Source: a virus. Taken from it: a stretch of 64,000 bases of DNA. The stretch's first letter is position 1, and every line of letters begins with the position of its first letter. Shown in pieces: positions 37,924-43,145 of this stretch. The stretch covers positions 1-64,000 of the IMG/VR virus record IMGVR_UViG_3300006803_000021, one strand, 5' to 3'. Under the pieces are notes generated by a model. That model was given only the letters and a program-made list of their open reading frames with translations, had not been told where the DNA came from and did not search any database. Both the position numbers and the translations under genes were made by a program.

Positions 37924-38103
37924 CTATTTGACTATTTTATCCCGTCGAGCAAGCTCTTTTAGATAGGTCGTCATGAGTTCGATGTGCATTGATCGTTCCA
38001 TTGGTGTGAGAGCTTCAATCTCCCCAATCGTCCAGGTTCCAGCCTGCGCCATCTTCATGGTCGAGACCGTGTTGTAGAACACACCTATGTTAGAATACGC
38101 CAT
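37924..38103 (-). CDS. gp51-like baseplate hub assembly protein, or -1 frameshift extension of gp26
   Basis: 59 residues from the ATG at 38103, two bases after the gp26-like stop; no ribosome site is visible. The C-terminal segment LTPMERSMHIELMTTYLKEL resembles the conserved 'MTPFER..Y..LL..YLKEE' of gp51-type proteins in other T4-like phages. The frame continues open upstream across a T TTT TTC heptamer in the gp26-like gene, so it may be made mainly as a fusion (293 residues in total). Confidence 0.7.
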   Translation of the reverse strand: MAYSNIGVFYNTVSTMKMAQAGTWTIGEIEALTPMERSMHIELMTTYLKELARRDKIVK

Positions 38104-38105
38104 GA

Positions 38106-38804
38106 TTAGGAGAAAAAAGAGTCGAATCCCCTCATGACGGTGTGATTTTGGTGCTTGCATGAAGGACATTCCCAATCACGAACGAACTCGATCCGAGGAA
38201 TGGAGTTGAGAAAGACTGTGCATTTTCGATACAGGTCCTGTTGACTCATGAACCAATCTTCGAACTCTGCGAAGTCGTCGATTTCAGCCTTTTCATCCTT
38301 GACATACACACCCTCAAGGCACTCGAAGATGAGTCGAACGTCTGCATTTTCATCATCCTGAACTTTAAGAGCTTCACCAACGGTAGGAATTCGAATGAAG
38401 AGCTTGACAGGATCGCCATTTTCATCAAGGCCGACGTCGATCTTACAGCGTTTCTTCTCGAGCTTCGGAACTTCGATCTGATCAAGTGGGATGGAAGCGG
38501 AAAGGACTTCTTCGCAATCCTTGGCTCGACAACGAAGACCGATGTCTATCGTCTGACTGACAGAGATTTCGTAGGCCTTCATGAAGAGGAATTCGAAATC
38601 TGTCATTGGAAACTTCGAGACATCATAGTCGGAACAGCTCGAAAGCACATCCATCGCTGCATTGATTCGATCACCCTTCTGAGTCGATTGCTTTGACATG
38701 AGCAGTGCCTTTTCTTCGGATCCGACAAATGGTCGAATTCGAATCTTCTTCCCAGAAGGAAGTGTGACAGACGTTTTGGTTTGTGTAATCTTAGGAAGAC
38801 CCAT
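38106..38804 (-). CDS. 26: Baseplate hub assembly protein (T4 gp26-like)
   Basis: 232 residues (T4 gp26: 208). The N-terminus KTSVTLPSGKKIRIRPFVGSEEKALL and the pattern DFEFLFMKAYEISVSQ match the T4 baseplate hub family. Four cysteines in two places (LRCRAKDCEE and WECPSCKH) suggest a zinc site. It is an early component of the central hub. Its last codons contain the slippery heptamer described separately. Confidence 0.85.
   Translation of the reverse strand: MGLPKITQTKTSVTLPSGKKIRIRPFVGSEEKALLMSKQSTQKGDRINAAMDVLSSCSDYDVSKFPMTDFEFLFMKAYEISVSQTIDIGLRCRAKDCEEVLSASIPLDQIEVPKLEKKRCKIDVGLDENGDPVKLFIRIPTVGEALKVQDDENADVRLIFECLEGVYVKDEKAEIDDFAEFEDWFMSQQDLYRKCTVFLNSIPRIEFVRDWECPSCKHQNHTVMRGFDSFFS
38112..38118 (-). 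promoter_or_regulatory. Programmed -1 frameshift slippery site (candidate)
   Basis: On the minus strand the sequence is T TTT TTC, with its three spaces exactly in the zero frame of the gp26-like gene (TCT TTT TTC TCC TAA). After a -1 slip translation reads FF-LLI-MAYSNIG and enters the gp51-like ORF. A small hairpin (GTGTT/AACAC, loop CTAC) begins about 30 nt downstream. Confidence 0.65.
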
Positions 38805-40670: not shown

Positions 40671-43145
40671 TTAGTTCGTAAGACGAACCTCTTGGAATGA
40701 AATTCCGGTTTGCGTGTAGATCAGTTCGAGACCGATGAACTCGACGGTTCGTGTAGGCTGCAGATAGATTTGAACGATCAGTTCGTTCGCATCGATCACT
40801 TCGGCTGGGTTGTTGTCGCCATCACAACGGACGTCGTATTCGTAAACGCCTCGTTGTGCGAAGATGTCGCGCATGAACGGATTCAGTAGATTGCGAACAG
40901 ATGCACGAGTGATCTCGTCATTGATTTCACCGATAGCAAACTTCAGAGCATCAGACACTCCGCGCTTGATGTGAATCGACAAGAATCGAACATTCGCGCG
41001 GTTGAATGCATCCTCTGTGCGAGCGAGAGTCTTCTGACCAAACAGGAAGAAGCCAACACCCTTGTTGCGTTTGACGTAGTTGATGTCATTCGCGTAGAGA
41101 GTGTTCTGTTGAGCTTCTGATGGCAAGAATGAAACTTGACGCGCCCGACGATAGCTGCCGCGTGTGTAACCAGCAGTAGCCGTCCACAAATTGTTGTCCC
41201 GATGTGTTCGAGCGTAAAGACCAGCGTCAGTACCGGTTGACGGAATCCAGCGTTCCTTCGCATTGTAGCGATCATAGATGCGAATCCACGTTGGGTTGAA
41301 GATACCATACGAAGAAGTCGGCAGAAGTGCAGCAAAATCGAGAATGCTGTTCAGTTCTCGGCCAGGATTTGCGACTGTGACATCTTGAGTTGATCCGACG
41401 AATGCAACTGCATCTTCACGGGTTTCCGCGATGTTGATCAGATATTGCGAAACGTTCGCACTCACACATGGATCGATCAGATACTGTATGTCGAAGTCCT
41501 CTTTGTTGGACATGCGAGCGAAAGCATTCTGATAGTCAGCATCTGTCAATGCAGAACCGTTGGCACCACCTGTGAGGATGCTGTCGCCGAAGTTCGTCAT
41601 ATCGCCAGTGATGCGGATGTAGCTCGAAACACGTGAGACATACTCAGGGTAGTAGTTGCTGATGCCGTTGGCGAACTTCGAAGTGGATTCAGTCGAGAGA
41701 TTCGTGTAGCGCTCAAGGACTTTGTTTGTTTCGCGATCGTATACGACAACGTGAACACCAGTTTGAGTGTGGAACACTTTCAGCGATTCGTCACCAAGTG
41801 GTAGACCGTAGGTGACTGCAACGTTGTCGACACCGATGATTGGGAAACCCCATTCGATCTCGATGTTGCCAATACCGCTTCCAGGAGCTGTGAAGAAGGT
41901 GAAGTCATATCCGCCAACAGCAGATTCAACTTGAACTTCACCAGCAGCAGGTGCGATCGCGACAGGTGAAAGCTCGACGCCGTCAACATATACGCGAACG
42001 TTCGCTGCAGTGATCGAATCTGTCGTGGTGATCGAGCGAACAGTTGTCGTGCCGTCGCCAGACAATGTTTCAAGATTCGTACCGACAGTCAACAGTCCGG
42101 TTGAAGGATCGATGTCAAAGTATCCGATTGGAATGTGACCAGTCTTGTTGAAGTCAGCGATCAATGTGACGCCGTCGACAACCACGTGAGATGTGAAGAG
42201 GTCGAGTTCATTCACGTTCAGGATGACGAATTCGCTAGTGATTCCGTCGCCATTGAAGTTCTCGATGTCAGGAGTGATCGAAAGAACCGATGCAGTTTTC
42301 TGCCATTCGCCAGGATTGACACCTTCAGCAATTGTGACACCATTGACGGTGACTTCAACATCTGTTGCAGTCAAGAAGGATGCGCCGAGTGTGAATGTTT
42401 CGGTGATGCCGTCGCCATCGAAGAATTGCTCAACAGCCGTGGGAGCTTTGCTGAACGAAGTTTCGAATTGGTTTCCGTAGAATTCGGAAGCACGAACGAC
42501 TGTCACACCGATGTTGTTGCCGAGTTCACCGGGATAGGAAGCGATGACTTCAGGCAATGTGAGGTTGCCGTCGTTGTATTCGTCGAAGTTCTTCACGACA
42601 AAGTCGTTCTTCGAGATGAGTGCAACACCAGTTCCTGCAGCTGCATAACCGGAGCCGTTCGATTTCAGATCGATTCCAGTGATCCCACCAGCACCGTCGA
42701 TCGCTGTGATCTGAGCTTCAGCAAGACTGACTGATCCACCAGTGATTGTCACAATATCGCCGACTGTGTAGCCAGAGCCTGCAGTGTTGATTGCAACAGA
42801 AGCGACTTCGCCATTTACTACATTCGAATCGACTGTGCCGGCGATGCCGACTCCACCGAGAGATGCGTTGTATGCATCAGCTGGTACGATTCGAGTGACG
42901 AAACAACCGGCATTCTCTGCGAGAAACTCTGCGGACAGAAACCATGTGGCGAAGTTAGCGTCATTTGGTTCGCCGAAAATTTGCACTTGTTCGTTTTCAC
43001 TGTCAAGCAATGTAGGAACATCAACAGGTCCCCATCCATAAAGCCCGCAAACGGCAGATTGCAGTCCGCTATTGGCGCTGACAGTCTGAGTGAGATTGAT
43101 CTCCCGAGTCGTGATACCCGGCGAGACGCGATTTACTCTCGTCAT
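40671..43145 (-). CDS. 18: Tail sheath protein (T4 gp18-like), enlarged
   Basis: 824 residues against 659 in T4. The N-terminus MTRVNRVSPGITTREINLTQ and the early SGLQSAVCGLYGWGPVD ... FLSAEFLAENAGCFVTRI are typical. The C-terminal core has LWTATAGYTRG, NYVKRNKGVGFFLFGQKTLA and FNRANVRFLSIHIKRGV. The extra length lies in inserted beta domains on the outer face, including a Gly-rich GSGYTVGD module at about 105-175. It forms the contractile outer tail. Confidence 0.93.
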   Translation of the reverse strand: MTRVNRVSPGITTREINLTQTVSANSGLQSAVCGLYGWGPVDVPTLLDSENEQVQIFGEPNDANFATWFLSAEFLAENAGCFVTRIVPADAYNASLGGVGIAGTVDSNVVNGEVASVAINTAGSGYTVGDIVTITGGSVSLAEAQITAIDGAGGITGIDLKSNGSGYAAAGTGVALISKNDFVVKNFDEYNDGNLTLPEVIASYPGELGNNIGVTVVRASEFYGNQFETSFSKAPTAVEQFFDGDGITETFTLGASFLTATDVEVTVNGVTIAEGVNPGEWQKTASVLSITPDIENFNGDGITSEFVILNVNELDLFTSHVVVDGVTLIADFNKTGHIPIGYFDIDPSTGLLTVGTNLETLSGDGTTTVRSITTTDSITAANVRVYVDGVELSPVAIAPAAGEVQVESAVGGYDFTFFTAPGSGIGNIEIEWGFPIIGVDNVAVTYGLPLGDESLKVFHTQTGVHVVVYDRETNKVLERYTNLSTESTSKFANGISNYYPEYVSRVSSYIRITGDMTNFGDSILTGGANGSALTDADYQNAFARMSNKEDFDIQYLIDPCVSANVSQYLINIAETREDAVAFVGSTQDVTVANPGRELNSILDFAALLPTSSYGIFNPTWIRIYDRYNAKERWIPSTGTDAGLYARTHRDNNLWTATAGYTRGSYRRARQVSFLPSEAQQNTLYANDINYVKRNKGVGFFLFGQKTLARTEDAFNRANVRFLSIHIKRGVSDALKFAIGEINDEITRASVRNLLNPFMRDIFAQRGVYEYDVRCDGDNNPAEVIDANELIVQIYLQPTRTVEFIGLELIYTQTGISFQEVRLTN

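Follow-up and report, generated by a model that had tools for sequence, protein, structure and literature searches.

Organization of the gp26/gp51 locus

The window analysed here is a stretch of viral DNA of 64,000 nt that belongs to a 65-kb IMG/VR virus record. On its minus strand lie two overlapping reading frames related to the baseplate genes 26 and 51 of phage T4, and their neighbours in the window are tail tube, sheath and baseplate genes. No tape measure gene was identified beside the pair in the window. The tail sheath gene (window 40671-43145, minus strand) encodes 824 aa, which is long compared with the phrog_23 profile (496 positions), and its extra sequence sits between the ends that the profile matches. 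The junction of the two frames comprises the following features:

38106..38804, minus strand: ORF of the gp26-like short product, 232 aa (PF12322; phrog_150; tail assembly chaperone / 'baseplate hub' protein)
38112..38118, minus strand: slippery heptamer T TTT TTC in the gp26 zero frame, coding for Phe-Phe before and after a slip
38106..38108, minus strand: gp26 zero-frame stop TAA
37924..38175, minus strand: -1 frame, open across the overlap, with a gp51-like domain as its C-terminal part (phrog_634; alignable with the C-terminal end of T4 gp51)
38101..38103, minus strand: sole nearby ATG of the gp51-like frame (TAATCATG), 59 codons, without a ribosome-binding site

The short protein matches PF12322 (T4_baseplate) with an E-value of 1.6e-39 and 136 bits against a cut-off of 24.5, and it also matches phrog_150 in a profile search. 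Its ATG is preceded by a Shine-Dalgarno (SD)-like GGAGAG whose pairing with the anti-SD amounts to -6.4 kcal/mol. The gp51-like extension was assigned to phrog_634, the gp51 family (E 2.6e-9).

At the junction the minus strand reads GAC TCT TTT TTC TCC TAA TC ATG, ending at 38101. An earlier note on this DNA had placed T TTT TTC exactly in the zero frame (TCT TTT TTC TCC TAA), and this is how it lies at 38118-38112; the note had put it two codons ahead of the gp26-like stop, where we count one sense codon. The -1 frame is open over the overlap as described there, from 38175 to a stop ending at 37924, and the ATG of the 59-codon gp51-like ORF indeed lacks a ribosome site, as the sequence upstream of it offers no anti-SD pairing (+3.5 kcal/mol). 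Translation of the predicted -1 fusion gives 293 aa and reads ...DSFFLLIMAY... across the junction, in agreement with the length and the SFF-LLIMAY peptide that the note had foreseen.

The AlphaFold2 model of the short protein is confident (pLDDT 93) and in a structure search matches viral gp26 models. A Foldseek search of the PDB with this model gave nothing significant. Among the matches listed, the HK97 tail assembly chaperone 2OB9 had the highest Foldseek probability (0.38-0.47; TM (target) 0.40-0.49), a weak match with an E-value of 0.85-1.3, and the PDB sequence search yielded chance-level matches only. The model thus gives a hint, and only a hint, of a tail assembly chaperone (TAC) fold of the HK97 gp13 and lambda gpG type.

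Conservation of the slippery heptamer

The earlier note had named conservation in related phages as a way to check its proposal. We collected 180 loci from annotated phages and environmental contigs and grouped them into 115 clusters at 90% identity. The scans seeded with RHph_Y68, L004 and ACP17 added few relatives, and the one seeded with BUCT-ZZ01 gave no matches. The nearest named phages are at best ~34% identical to the window protein; the closest of them are Pootjesviridae phages of Rhizobium and Agrobacterium, followed by cyanophages. Two further IMG/VR contigs encode the same protein with an identical slippery site, and a sequencing or assembly error was therefore rejected.

In 113 of the 115 T4-like clusters an in-frame T TTT TTN lies no more than 36 nt from the gp26 stop, as TTTTTTC in 99, TTTTTTT in 10 and TTTTTTG in 4. 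Its spacing to the stop is identical to that in the window in 101 of these 113 clusters. In each of the 113, the -1 frame crosses the heptamer without a stop and closes ~150-215 nt beyond the gp26 stop. Moreover, the codon that contributes the first T of the heptamer is always NNT (AGT, TCT, GAT, GCT, AAT, ACT, GGT or CAT), and across the clusters this codon ahead of the Phe pair encodes seven different amino acids.

Routes to the gp51 part

In 33 of the 113 clusters, the -1 frame contains no ATG, GTG or TTG near the junction, and a further 15 have no ATG there (48 without ATG in all). An SD below -5 kcal/mol precedes 36% of the gp26 starts but none of the 65 ATGs of the gp51 frame. Since the 33 clusters lack any start codon for gp51 near the junction, frameshifting appears, judging from the sequences, to be the simplest explanation for translation of the gp51 part that holds in all lineages.

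These start codons bear directly on stop-start reinitiation, in which ribosomes terminating at the TAA would restart at the ATG two bases on and make a separate 59-aa gp51. The arrangement TAATCATG in the window, TGATG or TAATG in several relatives and several database records in which gp51 is entered as a short gene of its own all speak for it. The clusters without a start codon speak against it, and it leaves the heptamer, the NNT rule and the gp26-like domain of T4 gp51 unexplained; we consider it improbable.

The T run itself, present at the site in 113/113 clusters, might alternatively make the RNA polymerase slip, so that a mixed mRNA pool would encode the fusion. Slippage of bacterial RNA polymerase normally requires longer runs. 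Here the run is 6 long in 103 of the 113 clusters, which argues against transcript slippage, and reaches 7 in 8 clusters and 8 in 2. No codon ending in TT precedes the site, so the run is not lengthened, and both its phase and its placement on the codons match a tandem tRNA slip. This explanation is thus very improbable, less so only than mere coincidence.

To gauge coincidence, we used a synonymous-codon null in which amino acids were fixed and codons were drawn from the usage of each gene. Under this null some heptamer is expected in ~46 clusters compared with the 113 observed, a comparison that carries no formal probability because the clusters are related by descent and their counts are not independent. 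A chance meeting of Phe-Phe codons with an unrelated downstream ORF has next to no probability: amino acids alone do make some in-frame heptamer likely in ~40% of genes, but 113 of 115 clusters have it, TTT-TTC is rare elsewhere in the same genes (3/124 Phe-Phe pairs) and the -1 ORF belongs to a protein family that is itself conserved. Away from the junction, 9 of 25,577 positions in these genes hold an in-frame TTTTTT. T4 gp26 keeps the Phe pair (KEFFELL) as TTC TTT, without a slippery site; conservation is therefore partly at the protein level.

Proposed frameshift mechanism

A programmed -1 ribosomal frameshift between the gp26-like and gp51-like genes, as claimed in the earlier note, is strongly supported by the heptamer, the open -1 frame, the NNT rule and the relatives that lack a start codon. 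On the basis of these sequence features, the locus is very probably a T4-like TAC pair expressed in this way. Most ribosomes would terminate at the TAA and release the short, gp26-like chaperone of 232 aa. At T TTT TTC a smaller fraction would move back by one nucleotide, with the P- and A-site tRNA-Phe re-pairing with TTT TTT, and in this lineage the slip would be aided mainly by pairing of an upstream AGGGG with 16S rRNA. The slipped ribosomes would continue into the gp51 domain to give the long form of 293 aa. As for lambda G and GT, the proportion of the two forms presumably guides assembly of the tail or hub. The sequence, its conservation, the reading frame and the homology to T4 gp26 and gp51 are shown here; we infer that ribosomes slip, how efficiently they do so, that the SD-like element plays a part and that the proteins act as chaperones.

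Candidate stimulators

Two elements flank the heptamer:

38128..38132, minus strand: SD-like AGGGG, candidate -1 stimulator, 9 nt 5' of the heptamer (anti-SD duplex -8.5 kcal/mol)
38055..38105, minus strand: possible weak stem TCATGG (38105-38100) / CCATGA (38060-38055), starting 6 nt after the heptamer

The AGGGG of the window has the strongest anti-SD pairing among the eleven sites listed. In most clusters SD-like tetramers begin 12 to 15 nt ahead of the heptamer, a placement due in part to a conserved Gly codon at this position. Compared with the synonymous-codon null, SD-like pairing is stronger in 73% (mean z of -0.88). An SD-like element stimulates slippage in E. coli dnaX, and by analogy the AGGGG may do so at the window site.

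Downstream, the earlier note had described a small hairpin about 30 nt away. The GTGTT/AACAC pairing is present (38082-38069), but the downstream sequence folds no better than its shuffles (z 0.32; from -0.5 to +1.5 for 30-80 nt), and the hairpin was rejected as a significant element of the window. The TCATGG/CCATGA stem encloses it; their 60-nt fold of -11.4 kcal/mol (z -0.5) is not above chance. The AGGGG is a better candidate stimulator than the small hairpin.

In the relatives, downstream structure is enriched (mean z -1.6 from +11 to +71, compared with 0.08 upstream), and long stems (score >=11) follow the heptamer within a few bases in 20%, compared with 3.5% of control stretches. Many cyanophages (L086, L089, L090 and L096) carry a long stem that starts 5-6 nt past the heptamer (GTATGGCTCA...TGAGTCATAC). 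This long stem is a good candidate for the stimulator in the cyanophages.

Two-gene phages and Ackermannviridae

T4, Acinetobacter phage fHyAci03, Aeromonas phage 44RR and Enterobacter phage EC-F2 carry two separate genes, one for a short gp26 and one for a gp51 of greater length; in EC-F2 the short protein is called gp26 only on account of a weak profile hit and its location ahead of gene 25. The terminal heptamer is absent from the short genes of all four (0/4). In each of them, a profile of the frameshift fusion (292 positions) aligns with gp51 up to position 278-287 and with gp26 only up to 227-234, which is the junction. The profile matches T4-type gp51 over nearly the whole fusion (E 2.9e-13) and T4-type gp26 with an E-value of 4.7e-19. 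In T4, fHyAci03 and 44RR the gp51 match extends over the gp26-like part too, and in EC-F2 the best gp51 domain lies mostly over the C-terminal part. T4 gp26 and gp51 thus resemble the window pair in being homologous short and long proteins, of which the long one includes the gp51 domain. They differ in that T4 and its close relatives use two genes, of which gene 26 does not end in a slippery sequence, whereas the window has one gene pair with a probable frameshift.

The two clusters of the 115 that lack the heptamer, Salmonella phage SM5 and Dickeya phage LIMEstone1, both belong to the Ackermannviridae. A third member of this family, VAP7, which was added after the 115, is likewise without the canonical heptamer and keeps the -1 ORF. 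The Ackermannviridae gp26 genes (L015 at 2289, L023 at 2295 and L192 at 3175) end in ATT TTC ATT TAA or GTT TTT CGC TAA. The gp51-like extension in the -1 frame is retained, and some have TAATG stop-start overlaps.

A tentative reading, to which we give somewhat less than an even chance, would derive all these arrangements from a single ancestral T4-like frameshift. Its stimulator would have switched by lineage, to an SD-like element here and a downstream stem-loop in many cyanophages and others; gene duplication would have replaced it in T4-type phages; and the Ackermannviridae would have taken another route, e.g., stop-start coupling or a one-tRNA slip.

Comparison with known systems

As is predicted for the window locus, lambda G/GT and P2 E/E' produce a short and a -1 extended tail protein from one locus. 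P2 E/E' also uses a T-rich heptamer, and that of lambda G/GT differs from the T TTT TTC of the window; no sequence similarity of either system to the window pair was shown.

Many T4-like cyanophage and rhizobial phage entries omit the gp51 part or label it as a separate gene, and the long chaperone is therefore absent from the annotations. The public annotations of four source records (L010, L014, L016 and L021) contain no gene for the gp51 extension. A T TTT TTN one or two codons ahead of the gp26 stop can serve as a rule for fixing such annotations. The survey also contrasts two routes, a frameshift or two genes, to the same protein pair.

In Virology in 2022, Vladimirov, Gautam and Davidson reportedly identified the T4 hub assembly chaperones gp26 and gp51 as TACs. 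The earlier note knew of no description of such a fusion in T4-like phages of this lineage; judging by later papers that cite their work, the frameshift was already known in T4-like phages. PMC12846349, with reference to Vladimirov, Gautam & Davidson 2022, describes poly-T slippery sequences as known signals for a -1 shift in T4-like TAC-N genes, and the window site is therefore a diverged addition to a phenomenon already reported. In agreement with the two-gene phages above, the PRFect paper (PMC10885494, citing Vladimirov et al. 2022) states that some T4-like phages use one short and one longer fused gene rather than a frameshift.

As far as these papers go, the window contig is a new, diverged example of a T4-like TAC frameshift that had itself been reported. 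It shares the gene pair, the heptamer and its position with the poly-T TAC-N frameshift of the Kyanoviridae and Pootjesviridae surveyed. It differs in that its protein is only ~34% identical to those of the nearest named phages and in that it combines a strong SD-like element with a weak downstream hairpin.
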